Shown: positions 27,850-34,467 of the stretch, one piece after another
Layout: every line of letters begins with the position of its first letter
Numbering within the stretch: position 1 is the first letter of the stretch
From: Flavobacterium salilacus subsp. salilacus
GTDB lineage: Bacteria; Bacteroidota; Bacteroidia; Flavobacteriales; Flavobacteriaceae
Direction of reading: 5' to 3'
Length of the DNA stretch: 64,000 nt
Assembly (NCBI RefSeq): GCF_004634195.1
Contig: NZ_SKBP01000006.1
Span: 62,001-126,000 of the forward strand
Position numbers and translations under genes: made by a program
Notes under the pieces: generated by a model
What the model was told of the DNA's origin: nothing
The model's database searches: none
What the model saw: the letters and a program-made list of their open reading frames with translations, nothing else

Positions 27850-28023
27850 TTAAGGGTTTAGCTTTTATTAACATCATCGCGAAATTTAATAACAAATACA
27901 GGCTGGTATATCGAAAAATGATAACCCTTAAATAGTTAAAGTACAAATAATCATAAGTTTTTGTAAAAAAAGGAAATTCATATTACTTTTTAAACTAAAT
28001 TTGTTTAATCTTTTTACAAAAAC
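27850..28023 (+). promoter_or_regulatory. Control region of the crt locus: nested inverted repeats around the promoter
   Basis: TAAATTTG (27996-28003) fits the -7 consensus. It is embedded in TTAAAC-N7-GTTTAA (27990-28008). A wider pair of perfect 13-bp arms, GTTTTTGTAAAAA (27957-27969) and TTTTTACAAAAAC (28011-28023), encloses the promoter and abuts the ATG. A third 9-bp inverted repeat lies at 27850-27858/27923-27931. The 10-mer TTGTTTAATC (28001-28010) recurs before crtI at 28935-28944. The arrangement suits repression by the adjacent MerR-type protein. Confidence 0.5.
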
Positions 28024-28024
28024 A

Positions 28025-28924
28025 ATGAACAAAGTAAAAACAAAATTCAATATCCGCGATCTGGAAAACCTTTCAGGTATAAAAGCGCATACCATTCGCA
28101 TTTGGGAAAAAAGATATAATATTCTTGAACCCATGCGTACCGAGACAAATATTCGCTTTTATGATATTGAAAATTTGCAGAAACTGCTTAATATATCCAC
28201 ATTACACAATTTTGGGTATAAAATATCCGTCATATCAAAAATGCCGGAAGAAAGGCTGCCTATACTGGTAAAAGAAGTGCTTTCAGAAAAAAACATGTCC
28301 AACCATGTGTTGAACAATTTTAAGCTGGCAATGATGAATTTCGATCAGGCGCTTTTTTTAAACACTTATAATGCAGTGTTGCAGGAAAAATCATTTAGAG
28401 ATATTTTTTATGAATATTTTATTCCGTTGCTTACCGAAATAGGTATTTTGTGGCAAACCAATACTATAACACCTGCCCATGAGCATTTTATAAGTTTCCT
28501 AATCAAACAAAAACTGGCATCGAATATTGAAAAGCTGCTACTGCAACCACCGGTAAAAACAGATATAACTTATGTGCTTTACTTACCTGAAAATGAGATA
28601 CATGAACTGGGACTAATGTTTATAAATTATGAACTGGCATTGAATGGTTGCAAATCTGTTTTTCTTGGAGAGAGTGTTCCTATAAGCAGCCTCAAAGACA
28701 TTAAAAATCACTTTGATAATATAACTTATGTAACTTATATTACAGTAGAACCTTCGATAGAAGAGATAAACGATTATATAGACGATTTAAAAGAAGAACT
28801 TATGAACGATAATAACACCAGATTGTATATATTCGGGAGAAACAGCAATTACATAGATAAGTCAAAATTAAATCCGAAAATATCAATATTCCAAACCATA
28901 AATGATTTTTCAAACAGTTTATAA
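28025..28924 (+). CDS. MerR-family regulator with cobalamin-binding domain (CarH/LitR type)
   Basis: The ATG at 28025 is chosen over an upstream TTG inside the promoter. Residues ~8-75 are a MerR helix-turn-helix (FNIRDLENLSGIKAHTIRIW). The middle part is a B12-binding helical bundle with W143-x9-E153-H154, the diagnostic motif of adenosylcobalamin photoreceptors. The Rossmann part keeps E191-x-H193-x-x-G196, where His is the lower cobalt ligand. In CarH, AdoCbl-bound tetramers repress carotenoid genes in the dark and light breaks the tetramer. It directly precedes crtIBZ, so control of carotenogenesis by light and B12 is a strong inference. Confidence 0.88.
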   Translation: MNKVKTKFNIRDLENLSGIKAHTIRIWEKRYNILEPMRTETNIRFYDIENLQKLLNISTLHNFGYKISVISKMPEERLPILVKEVLSEKNMSNHVLNNFKLAMMNFDQALFLNTYNAVLQEKSFRDIFYEYFIPLLTEIGILWQTNTITPAHEHFISFLIKQKLASNIEKLLLQPPVKTDITYVLYLPENEIHELGLMFINYELALNGCKSVFLGESVPISSLKDIKNHFDNITYVTYITVEPSIEEINDYIDDLKEELMNDNNTRLYIFGRNSNYIDKSKLNPKISIFQTINDFSNSL

Positions 28925-28966: not shown

Positions 28967-30463
28967 ATGAGCAAAGAAATAAAAATAATAGGTTCAGGTT
29001 TTTCGTCACTATCCGCAGCATGCTATCTTGCCAAAGCAGGGCACAATGTAACGATATATGAAAAAAACATGACCATAGGCGGAAGGGCAAGACAACTAAA
29101 AAAAGATGGCTTTACTTTCGATATGGGTCCTACCTGGTACTGGATGCCCGATGTTTTTGAGCGTTTCTTTGCCGATTTTGGCAAAAAGCCACATGATTAT
29201 TACAATATAAAAAAATTATCGCCGGCATACCGGGTATATTTCGGGCAAAACGATTATGTAGATATTGCGAATAACCCTAACAACATCATCAATACTTTTG
29301 AAGCTATAGAGCCGGGCAGCGGCAAAGCACTGCAAGATTTTCTTAACGAGGCAAAAAGCAATTATAATATTGCTATAAAAGACTTGGTTTACAGACCCGG
29401 AGAATCGCCATTAGAGTTGGTTACTCCAAAAACTATGATGAAACTGGGGCAGTTTTTCAGTAACATATCCCGCGATGTAAGAAAGAAGTTTAAAAGTAAA
29501 AAACTAATCCAGATACTGGAATTTCCCGTACTTTTTCTTGGGGCAAAACCGTCTGACACGCCTTCGTTTTACAGTTTTATGAACTATGCTGATTTTGGAT
29601 TGGGCACATGGCATCCTGAAGGAGGTATGTATAGTGTGGTACAGGGCATGGAAAACTTGGCTAAATCACTGGGGGTAACTATACAAACCAATGCAACAAT
29701 AGAAAAAATAGGAATAGAAGGCGGTACAGCTAAATGGATGATAATAAATGGTGAAAGGATTACTGCCGATATTATTGTGAGCGGCGCTGACTATCATCAT
29801 ACCGAAACGTTGCTCGACAAGCCTTACAGGACATACAGCGAGGAGTATTGGAACAAGTGCACTTTTGCACCATCTTCATTACTGTTTTATGTAGGTTTTA
29901 ATAAAAAAATTGAGAATGCTGAGCATCATACATTATTTTTTGATACTGATTTTGATGTGCACGCGCAGGATATATACGACAACCCGAAGTGGCCTGATGA
30001 GCCTTTGTTTTATGCCAGTTTCCCATCAAAAACAGATGAGAACAGCGCACCACTAACCAAAGAGGCAGGCATATTCCTTATTCCGCTCGCCCCGGGTATA
30101 GAGGATAATGAAGCGTTAAGAAAAAAATATTTTGATAAAATAATAACTCGGTTAGAAAAACTGACGGGACAAGAGGTTAAAAGCAGTATATTGTTTAACG
30201 AATCATACTGTGTGAATGATTTTGTAAAAGATTACAATTCATATAAAGGTAATGCATACGGGTTGGCTAACACGCTGTTGCAAACTGCTTTTTTAAGACC
30301 TAAGCTAAAAAGCCCAAAAGTAAAGAACCTTTACTTTACAGGACAGCTTACCGTACCGGGACCCGGTGTGCCACCGGCGCTCATTTCGGGCAAGCTGGTA
30401 GCCGGATTGATTGCGAAACAACTAAATAAAGAACTAAAAGTAACCGTAAAGGAAACAATATGA
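28967..30463 (+). CDS. crtI: Phytoene desaturase
   Basis: This FAD-dependent enzyme converts phytoene to lycopene at the membrane. An N-terminal dinucleotide-binding fold (IIGSGFSSLSAACYLAKAGH, then EKNMTIGGRAR) is followed by FDMGPTWYWMPDVF. The C-terminus has the carotenoid-desaturase signature LYFTGQLTVPGPGVPPALIS. The length of 498 residues is normal. The crtB ATG overlaps the stop by 4 nt, implying translational coupling. Confidence 0.95.
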   Translation: MSKEIKIIGSGFSSLSAACYLAKAGHNVTIYEKNMTIGGRARQLKKDGFTFDMGPTWYWMPDVFERFFADFGKKPHDYYNIKKLSPAYRVYFGQNDYVDIANNPNNIINTFEAIEPGSGKALQDFLNEAKSNYNIAIKDLVYRPGESPLELVTPKTMMKLGQFFSNISRDVRKKFKSKKLIQILEFPVLFLGAKPSDTPSFYSFMNYADFGLGTWHPEGGMYSVVQGMENLAKSLGVTIQTNATIEKIGIEGGTAKWMIINGERITADIIVSGADYHHTETLLDKPYRTYSEEYWNKCTFAPSSLLFYVGFNKKIENAEHHTLFFDTDFDVHAQDIYDNPKWPDEPLFYASFPSKTDENSAPLTKEAGIFLIPLAPGIEDNEALRKKYFDKIITRLEKLTGQEVKSSILFNESYCVNDFVKDYNSYKGNAYGLANTLLQTAFLRPKLKSPKVKNLYFTGQLTVPGPGVPPALISGKLVAGLIAKQLNKELKVTVKETI

Positions 30464-31299
30464 AATCTATTTTTGACGAAATATCCCGCCAGTGCAGCCG
30501 TAATGTAACCAAAGCATACAGCACTTCTTTTTCTTCTGCCGTAAAGATGCTTTCACCGCGCATACGCCAGGACATATATAATATATACGGGTTTGTACGT
30601 TTTGCAGATGAGATAGTCGATACTTTTCATGATTATGACAAAGAGAAACTGTTTTCACTTTTTGAAAATGACCTGGATAATGCATTGCAGGACGGTATCA
30701 GCCTAAATCCTGTATTGAATGCCTTTCAGCACACTGCTAGCAAATATAACATACCGAGAGAACTGATAAACAGTTTTATGGACAGCATGAAAATGGACTT
30801 ATACAAAAAAGACTATAAGAGTGTTACGGAATATAATGATTATATTTATGGATCGGCAGATGTTGTGGGGCTTATGTGCCTTAAAGTATTTACGGGCAAC
30901 GATAATTCTAAATATGAAGAACTGAAACAACCGGCAATGCGACTGGGTTCGGCATTCCAAAAAATAAACTTTTTGCGCGACCTGAAAGATGATACCGAAG
31001 GACTGGACAGAAACTATTTTCCTGCTTTGAATATTCAGGAAATGGATGATGTGGTAAAAAGACAAATTGTAGAAGAGATAGAAGCGGATCTGAATGAAGG
31101 GTTTAAAGGAATTATAAAACTGCCAACCGAGGCTAAATTTGGCGTTTATACAGCCTATGTATATTATAAGAAATTACTAAAAAAAATGAAAAGTACACCT
31201 TCGGTCAAAATTAAATCAACACGCATTCGTGTACCCGATTATCAAAAATTAGGGCTGTTGGCAAAATGTTATATCGACTACAGGTTTAATATTATATAG
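30460..31299 (+). CDS. crtB: Phytoene synthase
   Basis: It joins two geranylgeranyl diphosphates head to head into phytoene. Aspartate-rich motifs for Mg2+-diphosphate binding are present: FADEIVDTFHD (residues ~47-57) and RDLKDDTEGLDRNYFP (~173-188). YSTSFSSAVKML near the N-terminus is also family-typical. The length of 279 residues is usual for Bacteroidetes. It overlaps crtI by 4 nt (ATGA) and is followed by crtZ after 10 nt. Confidence 0.95.
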   Translation: MKSIFDEISRQCSRNVTKAYSTSFSSAVKMLSPRIRQDIYNIYGFVRFADEIVDTFHDYDKEKLFSLFENDLDNALQDGISLNPVLNAFQHTASKYNIPRELINSFMDSMKMDLYKKDYKSVTEYNDYIYGSADVVGLMCLKVFTGNDNSKYEELKQPAMRLGSAFQKINFLRDLKDDTEGLDRNYFPALNIQEMDDVVKRQIVEEIEADLNEGFKGIIKLPTEAKFGVYTAYVYYKKLLKKMKSTPSVKIKSTRIRVPDYQKLGLLAKCYIDYRFNII

Positions 31300-31309
31300 T
31301 TTACAATTT

Positions 31310-31759
31310 ATGGCACTTTACATTCACATAATAGTTTTTATCCTCACATTTTTTATGATGGAATTTATGGCGTGGTTTACCCATAAATACGTTATGCATG
31401 GTTTTTTATGGAGTTTGCATAAAGATCATCACCGTAAAGACCACGACTCTTGGTTTGAGCGTAACGATACTTTTTTTATATTTTATGCAGTGGTAAGTAT
31501 CGGCTTCTTTTTACTATGGCAAAACAATATCTTAGAGATTGGTCTTGCCATCGGGCTGGGCATTTTTGCCTATGGGCTTACCTACTTTTTAGTGCATGAT
31601 ATTTTTATACACCAGCGTTTTAAAATATTTCGAAACGCCAATAACCGATATGCCAAAGCAGTACGCAGGGCACACAAAATGCACCATAAGCATTTGGGCA
31701 AAAATAAGGGCGAATGCTTCGGGATGCTCATTGTGCCTTTTAAATATTTTAAGAAATAA
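31310..31759 (+). CDS. crtZ: Beta-carotene hydroxylase
   Basis: A small (149-residue) membrane di-iron hydroxylase of the fatty-acid-hydroxylase superfamily that adds 3/3'-hydroxyls to beta-carotene, giving zeaxanthin. The His clusters HKYVMH, HKDHH, HDIFIH and HKMHHKH are all present, separated by hydrophobic helices. It is the last gene of the crt operon and ends at a strong terminator. Its substrate requires lycopene cyclase, which is not in this window. Confidence 0.93.
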   Translation: MALYIHIIVFILTFFMMEFMAWFTHKYVMHGFLWSLHKDHHRKDHDSWFERNDTFFIFYAVVSIGFFLLWQNNILEIGLAIGLGIFAYGLTYFLVHDIFIHQRFKIFRNANNRYAKAVRRAHKMHHKHLGKNKGECFGMLIVPFKYFKK

Positions 31760-31775
31760 TATACTGTAAAAAAAC

Positions 31776-31804
31776 ATCCCCGAAAGAAAAATTCTTTCGG
31801 GGAT
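31776..31804. terminator. Terminator after crtZ
   Basis: ATCCCCGAAAGAA (31776-31788) and TTCTTTCGGGGAT (31792-31804) form a perfect 13-bp stem with a 3-nt loop. The T run is weak on the plus strand, while A7 upstream gives a good U-tract to the convergent minus-strand DUF4252 operon. Confidence 0.75.
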
Positions 31805-31835
31805 AAACTTACAATTAACCTTTATTATTTTCTGA

Positions 31836-32372
31836 TTATTTCTTCATTATATCCTTCAATGGCTCAAGCTGCTCCAGGTTTAAATTTCCTTTTTGCAATA
31901 ACTGCATCATTGTCATGATATTATTAGGATTCATGTCATCGCCCAACAGGCGTACTACGCCAAAGCCATTATCTTGCCGGTGCATAAACAATACAAACTC
32001 ATCAATATGTACATCTTTACCAACGGCATATATGCAAACACCTTCGTTGTTAGAGCCGTAGCGCATCAACTCTTCATACTGCTCATCTTTCAATAAATTC
32101 TTTACATTGTTTTGCTCTGTTTTATACAACTGAGTATTTAAAGAATCGTTTTCAAAAATAAGTATATTCAGTTTTTTTAGCGATTGCAGTGCTGCTTTCT
32201 CATCGGCTGAGAGCTTAATACTGTCGGTATCTACAAAATTTGGTGCAATATCAAGTGCTACAAAGTTTTTAGTTTGCGACTTTTCTACAAAATATTTTTG
32301 CAGTGATGGTTTATTATCACAAGATGACAACATTACTAATAGCAAACCGGCTATAAAAAATACCTTTTTCAT
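31836..32372 (-). CDS. DUF4252 lipoprotein (third copy)
   Basis: A 178-residue lipoprotein (MKKVFFIAGLLLVMLSSC, Cys 18). DUF4252 features include an N-terminal region for KNFVALDIAP-type strands, an EELMRYGSNNEGVCIYAVG strand and a C-terminal LLGDDMNPNNIMTMMQLLQ. This is the most diverged of three tandem DUF4252 genes and the only one with a lipobox. Its start is 2 nt from the preceding stop, so it is operonic. The function of DUF4252 is unknown. Confidence 0.85.
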   Translation of the reverse strand: MKKVFFIAGLLLVMLSSCDNKPSLQKYFVEKSQTKNFVALDIAPNFVDTDSIKLSADEKAALQSLKKLNILIFENDSLNTQLYKTEQNNVKNLLKDEQYEELMRYGSNNEGVCIYAVGKDVHIDEFVLFMHRQDNGFGVVRLLGDDMNPNNIMTMMQLLQKGNLNLEQLEPLKDIMKK

Positions 32373-32374
32373 AG

Positions 32375-32899
32375 TTACGATTTTTTAGATGCTTTCCTGA
32401 GGTGGTTACCTCCTGGTAAATTCATTTTATCAGTAAGTATCGTTATTTCACTCAAGTCAAAATTACCTGTAAGTGTCATTAACACTGTTTCATCCTTACC
32501 TCCGCCTTCTATGAACATCAATAGCTCTTTTACCTGCGATGACGTACTGCCCGATTTAACGTATATTTTGATAATCTTACCGCTGTCGTTAACACGCATC
32601 AACTCCTCCAGCGGGTACTTTTTCAGGTAAGCCGCTACAGTCGTTTTCATATCGGCTATGGCTTTACCGTCAGATGTGGTAAATATCTTCAGGTTATCCA
32701 GCTTTTTAATCAGGTCAAAATATTGTTGGGCATCCTTATTGTTTTTATCCATCTCTACATTGCCCATCAATTCAAACATTTTTTTGCTCACTATAATAGC
32801 TGTCACGCCATCCTTACCATCAAACTTGTCGAATGCTGACTGTGCAAAGAATAGTGAAGGCATAAGTAGTAGTACAAATGCAATTAATATCTTTTTCAT
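32375..32899 (-). CDS. DUF4252 protein (second copy)
   Basis: The 174-residue secreted protein has a Sec signal (KKILIAFVLLLMPSLFFAQ). It shares with the first copy the motifs FDKFDGKDGVTAIIVSKKMF, YLKKYPLEELMRVND and the LMFIEGG..ETVLMTLTGNFDL ending. A mature region of about 150 residues without enzymatic motifs suggests a periplasmic or surface structural or sensory protein. It lies in the ECF sigma operon, between its two paralogues. Confidence 0.87.
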   Translation of the reverse strand: MKKILIAFVLLLMPSLFFAQSAFDKFDGKDGVTAIIVSKKMFELMGNVEMDKNNKDAQQYFDLIKKLDNLKIFTTSDGKAIADMKTTVAAYLKKYPLEELMRVNDSGKIIKIYVKSGSTSSQVKELLMFIEGGGKDETVLMTLTGNFDLSEITILTDKMNLPGGNHLRKASKKS

Positions 32900-32933
32900 C
32901 TTTATTATCTTTATTCTGTGTTTTGTTAATTTA

Positions 32934-33401
32934 CTAATTTACTTTTTTATCCTCCAAATCTACATTTCCTATAAAAGAGACAAGTACAACCTCATCATCC
33001 TTCTCATTTTCGGTAAAAACAATCAACTCTCTTATTTGTGAGCTCTTTTCACTGGTGGTCATGTAAACATTCACTTTTGTACCTTTATCATTTACAGCTA
33101 CAACTTGCTCCATAGGATGCTTCTTAAGATACGATTTTACCGTTTTCTTCATTTCTTTAGAATGCTTTTTTTCTGATGTGGTAAACACCCTAAAACTTTC
33201 TGTTTCCTTTATGTTGTTCAGATAAGGCTCTGCCTGCTTCACGCCATCCGAAATTTTTATATAGTTAAGGATGTTTATCAGGTTTTCATTAATCACTAAT
33301 CCGTCAATGCCTTCCTGATCCTGAAATTTATCAAAATCTGTCTGGGCAAAGGTAGCAAACGGCATGGCTGCCAGTATTGCTGTAATTATAATTTTTTTCA
33401 T
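32934..33401 (-). CDS. DUF4252 protein (first copy)
   Basis: 155 residues with a Sec signal (KKIIITAILAAMPFATFAQ). FDKFQDQEGIDGLVINENL and YLKKHPMEQVVAVNDKGTKV align by eye with the second copy. Its ATG overlaps the stop of the anti-sigma-like gene by 4 nt, showing translational coupling to the regulators. DUF4252 proteins behind an ECF sigma and membrane anti-sigma are a recurrent Bacteroidetes arrangement. The stimulus is unknown. Confidence 0.87.
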   Translation of the reverse strand: MKKIIITAILAAMPFATFAQTDFDKFQDQEGIDGLVINENLINILNYIKISDGVKQAEPYLNNIKETESFRVFTTSEKKHSKEMKKTVKSYLKKHPMEQVVAVNDKGTKVNVYMTTSEKSSQIRELIVFTENEKDDEVVLVSFIGNVDLEDKKVN

Positions 33402-33850
33402 TTTTTGTTGTCTTTAAAAATTCTGTTTTTAGATTTCTCATATTCGCCTAAATACGCTGCACCTGTTACCCCCACATTAATCTGTCTGGAAAGCATGTTA
33501 AGTGCTTTTTGAGTTTCTCTGAAAGCTACTTCAGGATCATCATAAGTACCCAGCTCTCCTGCTTTAGGAGTTTGCGGAGTAAGGAATAGTGTATAAAGAC
33601 CAAGCATAACAATAAAACTTGCTGCTACCGATAACCACGCTACATATCGTTTTCCGGGTTTTAGTGGTACGGTTTTCTCAAATTTTTCTGTTGCCTGCCG
33701 GGCAAAATATCCAAACATAGGTCGGTACTGCTCCAAATGGGGCGCCACATCAGGAGATGAAAAATAGTTTTTAAGTCTATTCTCCTCGGCAGTACTGGTT
33801 GCTGCATCAAAATATTTTTCCAGTAATTTTTCAATTTCTTTCAATTCCAT
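33398..33850 (-). CDS. Anti-sigma-factor-like membrane protein
   Basis: A 150-residue protein with a cytoplasmic N-terminal ~75 residues (ELKEIEKLLEKYFDAATSTA), one membrane helix (YVAWLSVAASFIVMLGLYTLFL, ~70-91) and a short outer part with EVAFRETQKALNMLS. This topology and its position after an ECF sigma gene (20-nt overlap) fit a single-pass anti-sigma factor. It lacks the ZAS zinc motif, so the assignment rests on context and topology. Confidence 0.75.
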   Translation of the reverse strand: MELKEIEKLLEKYFDAATSTAEENRLKNYFSSPDVAPHLEQYRPMFGYFARQATEKFEKTVPLKPGKRYVAWLSVAASFIVMLGLYTLFLTPQTPKAGELGTYDDPEVAFRETQKALNMLSRQINVGVTGAAYLGEYEKSKNRIFKDNKK

Positions 33851-34346
33851 AGCTATGTTTTTTTGTAAGCTCTTCTCTAATCGTTTTTCTTGCTCTCGAA
33901 AGGGCTACTCGCACAGCCGTTTCGGTCATATCCATCATTTTGGCGATTTCTTCAAACTCATATTGTTCCACATCGCGCATTTGTATTATTATTTTTTGCT
34001 GTTCAGGCAGGGTTTCCATAATTTTTTCTACCCAACTCCAGCTATCACGATCTTCAGCCTGTTTTTCCAAACCGGCTTGCCTGTCAGTAAAATTAGAATG
34101 CACTATACGCATCTCTGTAGCCCGTTTTGATTTCAACTGATCCAAACAATAATTTTTTGTTATCGTTATTGCCAATGCCTCCACACTCGAATAGGTATCC
34201 AGCTTACCCCTGTTCTTCCAAAGCCTCACCAATACCTCCTGTGTGGCATCCTCAGCCTCTTCGGTACTTATCAAAAGGCGTTTTGCCAATCGAAACATCC
34301 TATCTTTAAAGGTATTTGTTACTTTTATGAACTCTGACTGATTCAT
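33831..34346 (-). CDS. ECF-type RNA polymerase sigma factor
   Basis: 171 residues. Region 2 is at ~10-75 (FKDRMFRLAKRLL, AEDATQEVLVRLWKN). Region 4 is at ~105-160 (LPEQQKIIIQMRDVEQYEFE, then MTETAVRVALSRARK). It is the first gene of a five-gene unit with an anti-sigma-like protein and three DUF4252 genes, which it probably autoregulates. No -7 element of the housekeeping type is evident upstream, which would fit self-control. Confidence 0.92.
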   Translation of the reverse strand: MNQSEFIKVTNTFKDRMFRLAKRLLISTEEAEDATQEVLVRLWKNRGKLDTYSSVEALAITITKNYCLDQLKSKRATEMRIVHSNFTDRQAGLEKQAEDRDSWSWVEKIMETLPEQQKIIIQMRDVEQYEFEEIAKMMDMTETAVRVALSRARKTIREELTKKHSYGIERN

Positions 34347-34467
34347 TTATCGGGCGTGGTTTGTTTACCGTTAACAAAAGGAAGACGAACGGTATAATTT
34401 TTTGTTACATATTATATTAAATATATTAAATTTACGTTTTTATATTAAGAAACAATAATTGCAATTA

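Follow-up and report, generated by a model that had tools for sequence, protein, structure and literature searches.

A CarH-like MerR regulator with a conserved B12-pocket signature heads the carotenoid operon of Flavobacterium salilacus

Results

The window analyzed here, a 64,000-nucleotide stretch of the Flavobacterium salilacus subsp. salilacus genome (3.01 Mb in 17 contigs, 99.85% complete), carries on its forward strand a carH-like gene (28025..28924, with its ATG at 28025) whose 299-residue product is a MerR-family protein by Pfam. It is followed, after 42 bp, by a gene with an Amino_oxidase domain (28967..30463, +; PF01593, 1.2e-32) that we take from family knowledge to be crtI, encoding phytoene desaturase, then by the phytoene synthase gene crtB (30460..31299, +; PF00494, 1.1e-46), which overlaps crtI by 4 bp, and 10 bp further on by a member of the fatty-acid hydroxylase superfamily (31310..31759, +; PF04116, 6.5e-13), presumably, again from family knowledge, the carotene hydroxylase gene crtZ. 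A terminator-like hairpin of 14 pairs, picked up in a pattern scan and listed on the minus strand (31775..31805), sits between crtZ and a set of convergent DUF4252 genes and is the likely end of the operon. The open reading frame with its coordinates, the two pocket motifs discussed below and the gene’s place ahead of crtI-crtB-crtZ had all been described in the initial annotation and were recovered by ORF calling, translation and Pfam searches. The lycopene cyclase profile PF18916 found no match in this genome, and the pathway’s cyclase was not located; since crtZ implies a cyclic product, the missing enzyme is either of another type or was overlooked. By its carH-like protein, the nearest named isolate is F. 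zepuense (78%), with a Flavobacterium MAG at 80%. Within the genome itself there is no second carH-like copy at E≤0.001, and the one other match to the B12-binding four-helix profile PF02607 lies in a 1416-residue frame that, judged by its size, is probably MetH.

Pfam places the MerR-type DNA-binding domain at residues 9-73 (MerR_1, PF13411, 4.1e-15) and, together with the model, a B12-binding four-helix bundle at about residues 92-171 (PF02607, 2.8e-10); both scores are above cut-off and both profiles matched 32 of 32 family members, while the predicted structure adds a Rossmann domain at about residues 178-299. The corresponding Rossmann B12 profile, PF02310, matched none of the 32 members at E≤0.01, and it is important to note that Thermus thermophilus CarH (TtCarH), run as a control, itself scores under the PF02310 cut-off (23.8 vs. 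32.1 bits). The top match by sequence among solved structures is T. thermophilus LitR/CarH (E 1e-13), and TtCarH is likewise the best Foldseek match of an AlphaFold model built from 32 family sequences (mean pLDDT 87.8, pTM 0.78, residues 171-299 in blocks of at least 90). When Foldseek’s own list was compared with VIA-align 2, the B12-binding half of the model aligned to the TtCarH B12 domain with a Z-score of 21.1 (2.4 Å over 196 residues), to SasPcob with 20.1 (2.4 Å over 200 residues), to CtMerR with 19.5-19.6 and to methionine synthase with 16.5-17.4. The initial annotation had called for a structure prediction, and the model indeed has the CarH fold; as the match to TtCarH includes the Rossmann part, we consider this domain present despite the silence of PF02310. 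That silence was nonetheless counted against a photoreceptor function, as were the model’s weaker stretch at residues 141-150 around Trp143 (pLDDT 79) and the low score in the NCBIfam CarH equivalog model NF052513 (66.4 bits against a cut-off of 400, where the TtCarH control reaches 509.9).

Translation of the gene reveals both motifs of the CarH cobalamin pocket: W143-x9-E153-H154 (28451..28486, +), which in CarH caps the adenosyl group, and E191-x-H193-x-x-G196 (here E191-I-H193-E-L-G196; 28595..28612, +), which supplies the lower axial cobalt ligand. A homologue search of genome contigs returned 42 related loci, and in a first alignment of 42 rows (the window and 41 loci) the W, E, ExH and G positions are invariant and H154 is kept in 39. 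A phylum sample of 395 genomes added 130 with a match at E≤1e-8, among them, by listing, 38 of 41 genomes of the window’s own family; some of the matches from outside the class may be different B12 proteins, and the 60 regions added from the sample are its best-scoring matches without a locus rather than every match. The counts that follow use 123 lineage rows, composed of a Flavobacteriales set of 80 (the window, 41 named loci and 38 phylum-sample rows) and 43 rows from other families, of which 41 belong to the same class and two (L128, L136) to another class of the phylum; L035, fused to an upstream frame, was left out of both the first alignment and these counts, as was L070 (equal to the window) from the latter, and L022 is incomplete. 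W143, E153, E191, H193 and G196 are each present in 80/80 Flavobacteriales rows, down to 32% identity to the window, and H154 in 74/80 (Gln in five, Arg in one), leaving EH complete in 74. All but one of the 123 B12-domain sequences are distinct, yet they are related, so the P values given here overstate independence.

Two observations concern the cap. The rows with Gln for H154 (L036, L038, L043, L090 and L096, two of them named Psychroflexus) and the one with Arg (L103) are a natural test of that residue; they were counted against a photoreceptor, although crt genes are adjacent in all four whose flanks were examined (L036, L038, L043 and L103). Position 152 (28478-28480), where TtCarH has Glu140, is His in 69/80 Flavobacteriales rows (Asn in 10, Gln in one) and in 10/43 others; from the alignment, this residue might serve as another ligand or as part of the cap.

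The invariance of the pocket bears directly on whether the protein might be a CarA-like regulator, free of B12 and light and answering another signal such as an antirepressor, with its motif residues as structural leftovers. Myxococcus xanthus CarA is a CarH paralogue that also controls carotenoids and retains the B12 motif and EH, but it is described as B12-independent and as lacking the Trp of Wx9EH, so that an intact Wx9EH separates CarH from CarA (PMC9304148); by this sequence criterion the protein described here, its Trp143 kept throughout the Flavobacteriales set, is on the CarH side. Relatives that have lost the motifs do exist in other Bacteroidia families, which speaks for the CarA-like option in showing that decay occurs within the class, yet these relatives look different from the window’s protein and make retention of the pocket informative. 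Seven of the 43 other-family rows are degenerate (L129, L144, L145, L146, L147, L150 and L157, all in families f4, f5 and f8) and 36 are pocket-intact; the ligand His193 is lost in 7/7, and at least one more of W, H154 and D/E191 in five, H193 being the sole tested residue lost in L129 and L147. The crtI or crtB gene lies within about 5 kb of 23/36 intact but 0/7 degenerate copies (Fisher P = 0.0024, kinship ignored), and among the first-scan loci crtI is found in the flanks of 36/42, with crtI, crtB and crtZ together in 35. The 13 intact other-family copies away from crt, one of them (L135) at a contig end, were counted against a photoreceptor. With PF02310 unmatched throughout, the classic GG altered and a dimer-contact pair lost (both detailed below) on one side, and a ligand His, Trp and Glu held invariant over such sequence divergence on the other, we judge a CarA-like, B12-free regulator to be quite unlikely.

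In a 76-row tree that samples 24 of the 80 Flavobacteriales rows and has TtCarH and some others on long branches, the 67 included lineage rows form one side of a branch with 100/100 support; the intact or degenerate label changes at least three times, and four of the seven degenerates group together (93/96). An intact copy stands alongside the degenerate one in five genomes (G033, G158, G162, G253 and G320), and in two (G064 and G178) the single match is degenerate. Near L129, L146 and L150 lies a gene that we presume, by eye, to be bshA-like. A distant sequence on a plasmid of Persicobacter sp. JZB09 (L052, 29% identity), in which the Trp is kept, EH reads EN and Asp replaces the ligand His, is by these residues another decayed relative.

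The Rossmann tail had been called less canonical, and this stands with one refinement: in the place of the classic GG lies G271-R272 (28835..28840, +, by alignment), with Gly271 kept in 79/80 rows and the second Gly in 1/80, a deviation common to the family. T237-Y-I239 and G271-R272 together depart from the classic B12 motif in its SxT/V...GG portion, which was also counted against a photoreceptor. The SignatureFinder elements of light-responsive B12 domains are given as GxxW, EH, GxxH and GxxxP (PMC11796333); GxxW, EH and GxxxP are present here, and in GxxH the Gly, found in 6/80 Flavobacteriales and 24/43 other rows, is replaced by Asn190. Strictly applied, the NCBIfam CarH model and the SignatureFinder screen would thus miss the protein, the former because it scores 66 bits and the latter because of Asn190.

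As to cofactor supply, a profile search of the genome identified a PduO-type adenosyltransferase (2e-62) and no CobA/BtuR-type one, and the corrin-ring marker CbiC, the one marker used, is absent; AdoCbl therefore probably derives from imported corrinoid. PF02310 has three matches above cut-off in this genome, all in long frames that by size alone are MetH- and mutase-like. Across the phylum sample, the adenosyltransferase profile PF01923 is found in 129/130 genomes with a carH-like match vs. 163/265 without one, a comparison confounded by lineage. A review gives the share of Bacteroidetes genomes capable of making cobamides de novo as 0.6% (PMC8123684).

A mismatch that the initial annotation did not mention lies next to the capping Trp. 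In TtCarH, this Trp is followed by His132, which serves as upper ligand to the cobalt once the protein is in its light state (PMC8156234, PMC10442372), whereas the window’s protein has Gln144 in its place (28454..28456, +, by alignment). His is found at this position in none of the 123 lineage rows, which have Gln in 79/80 and Gly in 1/80 Flavobacteriales rows and Gln (11), Leu (10), Met (5), Ile (4) and others in the 43 remaining ones; L149, one of eight rows belonging to other classes, does have it. The TtCarH Arg176-Asp201 dimer pair is missing as well, with Ile192 and Ser217 here, so the dimer interface must differ from that of TtCarH; this too was counted against a photoreceptor. Gly192 of the dimer-dimer interface is conserved in 80/80 rows, and Gly160 in none, with Gln in 61/80 (the alignment of this loop is unsure). 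The initial annotation’s statement that the protein keeps the CarH signature consequently holds for the AdoCbl-pocket motifs, the CarH fold and the crt setting, as judged by alignment, predicted structure and comparative genomics, and fails for His132, Arg176-Asp201, the second GG glycine and the GxxH glycine. With the SxT/V...GG motif, the bis-His pair, the NCBIfam score and one SignatureFinder element all departing, we describe the protein as a CarH-like variant and not a Thermus-type CarH.

Loss of His132 raises the question of whether light would release such a protein at all. One study reports that the TtCarH H132A variant remains for the most part a tetramer when illuminated, and acknowledges an earlier report of disassembly (PMC10442372); we counted the replacement against a photoreceptor for this reason. 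The lineage could instead represent an AdoCbl-binding sensor of B12 status, in which plentiful corrinoid represses crt and scarcity releases it with little effect of light, the oligomer surviving photolysis for want of a bis-His switch; the near-uniform Gln of the Flavobacteriales rows and a host that lacks CbiC, and so is probably reliant on outside corrinoid, would suit such a sensor. Yet what the lineage conserves is the W/E/H cap, reported to be crucial for CarH photoreception and AdoCbl specificity (PMC9304148), and the target genes make light-protective pigments. Moreover, SasPcob has Gln at the same position (PMC11796333) and is nevertheless monomeric in light, with a water- or hydroxide-ligated Co(III) and no bis-His ligation (PMC10979010), and CtMerR carries Arg in place of the second His (PMC11796333). 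We regard a pure B12-status sensor as unlikely and, given Gln144 and the light-driven monomerization of SasPcob with Gln, predict by analogy a SasPcob-like light state that would be ligated by water or hydroxide rather than by two histidines.

Comparison with characterized systems delineates how far these analogies reach. With TtCarH (class I LitR; PDB 5C8D/E/F) the protein shares the succession of MerR domain, helix bundle and Rossmann domain, Wx9EH, ExHxxG and adjacent carotenoid genes, but identity is about 20%, and Gln for His132, one Gly for GG, Asn for Gly174, the missing Arg176-Asp201 pair and a score below the NCBIfam CarH cut-off set the two apart. CtMerR (PDB 8JBS/8JBT) is at 16% identity, and its source, Chloracidobacterium thermophilum, belongs to a different phylum. 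Like the window’s protein it lacks the second His, and it is described as a B12 photoreceptor of the MerR family (PMC11796333). The photocobilin SasPcob of Saccharothrix syringae (PDB 8J2W/8J2X) is alike in B12-domain fold, in Gln at position 132 and, as a prediction, in light monomerization without bis-His, whereas its partner domain is a bilin-binding globin-like one where ours is MerR (PMC10979010). The Pseudomonas class II LitR PmlR2 also combines MerR and helix bundle; it is described as missing the Rossmann half and, in Pseudomonas, class II LitR serves a LOV protein (PMC9758184). This last system suggests a further option, namely that the fold binds some other ligand or tetrapyrrole, or takes its light input from a separate photoreceptor, and the match of PF02607 alone recalls the class II proteins that keep only the helix-bundle half (PMC9758184). 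The Rossmann domain with its ligand His is, however, present in the model, and the operon’s neighbors, as far as they were scanned, showed no LOV gene, which makes such a ligand or partner very improbable in our estimation.

The DNA ahead of the gene offers a candidate operator. Promoters of Bacteroidetes have a -7 element of the form TAnnTTTG, and a -7-like element fused to TTTGTTTAA, itself conspicuous on visual inspection, forms the candidate promoter/operator TAAATTTGTTTAA (27996..28008, +), 16 bp ahead of the start codon. Read directly from the window, this site is flanked by the arms of an inverted repeat, TTTTTGTAAAAA on the left (27958..27969, +) and TTTTTACAAAAA on the right, shortly ahead of the start codon (28011..28022, +), and arms similar to TTTTTGTAAAAA/TTTTTACAAAAA are also found in the closest relative (L009). 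After re-anchoring of the genes (129 regions, not including L153 and L154), TTTGTTTAA or its complement occurs within 150 bp upstream of 57/80 family genes vs. 29/253 neighboring genes. The shorter TGTTTAA, on either strand and within the same distance, precedes 13/43 genes of the other families vs. 13/225 neighbors (P = 1.9e-5), and ranks first in an unbiased 7-mer count there (uncorrected for the number of 7-mers). On the gene strand, TAnnTTTGTTTAA is present in 50/80 Flavobacteriales; for 48 of these 50, the distance from its end to the inferred start is exactly 16 bp. As the element overlaps the -7 region, as a repressor operator would, TAnnTTTGTTTAA is a candidate operator over the promoter; being in part a general promoter motif, it may owe its conservation to promoter function. 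Genome-wide it occurs in 12 places vs. 10 for a reversed control, and it is not exclusive to the carH-like gene. Its remaining sites close ahead of a long frame precede genes without a tie to light: by eye from their first residues, an epimerase-like gene beside dnaJ/grpE-like ones and sdhC-like, dps-like, oxidoreductase-like and membrane-protein genes. A search for TAnnTTTGTTTAA thus yielded no light regulon, and the element is absent from the 110 bp shown upstream of two photolyase-like genes (PF03441).

Discussion

From the motifs, fold, operon, conservation, DNA element and adenosyltransferase that computation shows, we infer AdoCbl binding, an oligomeric state, repression, light release and an operator identity that together describe a regulator of the CarH/LitR type: the protein is probably an AdoCbl-dependent dark repressor, released by light, that autoregulates carH-crtIBZ. 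In the dark, scavenged corrinoid would be converted to AdoCbl by the PduO-type adenosyltransferase and the cofactor held between helix bundle and Rossmann domain, the cobalt lying above His193 and the adenosyl group enclosed by Trp143, Glu153 and His154; the holo-oligomer would then sit on TTTGTTTAA over the -7 region and block transcription. In light, breakage of the Co-C bond would let the adenosyl group leave and the oligomer dissociate, and the pigment genes would be turned on.

Beyond this locus, we propose, tentatively and at somewhat less than even odds, that the family is a Bacteroidia-wide lineage of B12 photoreceptors that achieves light release without a bis-His switch and relies on an imported chromophore. 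Carotenoid genes would then be on in light or under corrinoid scarcity, pigmentation would hang on B12 made by others, and several families would hold a second, pocket-less copy comparable to the myxobacterial CarA. If true, this would provide pigmented Flavobacteria with a means of sensing light and tie their pigment to B12 supply. It is also important to note that the need for His132 in DNA release by CarH is disputed (PMC10442372): the present lineage is naturally without this His and holds the adenosyl pocket constant, so a single purified member would help decide the matter.

Within the openly licensed literature, our searches turned up no paper describing a CarH from Bacteroidota. In the passages available to us, PMC8123684 and PMC7435645 mention CarH/LitR in general terms only, and two further papers, in the parts concerned, record that flavobacterial crt genes are accompanied by a MerR-family gene, without linking it to B12 or light. 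Chryseobacterium lacus is reported to make carotenoids on light induction and to be white in the dark, its authors having found no car/lit genes (PMC7064467). The carH-like gene is absent from 8/8 sample genomes of the order’s other family, and together with the C. lacus response this suggests that the order may contain another light system of a different kind.

A further regulatory locus borders the operon. Convergent to crtZ and on the minus strand (31836-34346) lie a gene for an ECF sigma factor, one for a presumed anti-sigma factor without a Pfam match and three DUF4252 genes; within the limited flanks of relatives, the sigma gene is found near the carH-like gene at 20/42 loci and DUF4252 genes at 22/42, including loci whose flanks have no crt (L016, L042) and one with crt on the opposite side of the carH-like gene (L037). 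A CarQ/CarR-like link was considered and rejected for now: the sigma promoter has a conserved pattern of its own, TGTTTAA or its complement occurs there at just 1/20 loci, and the terminator-like hairpin lies in between. By eye, a TGTAAC...TCGTC pattern is conserved ahead of the sigma gene, at 34347-34456 in the window and likewise in 20 relatives. It differs from the TTTGTTTAA element and has the look of a self-regulated ECF promoter.
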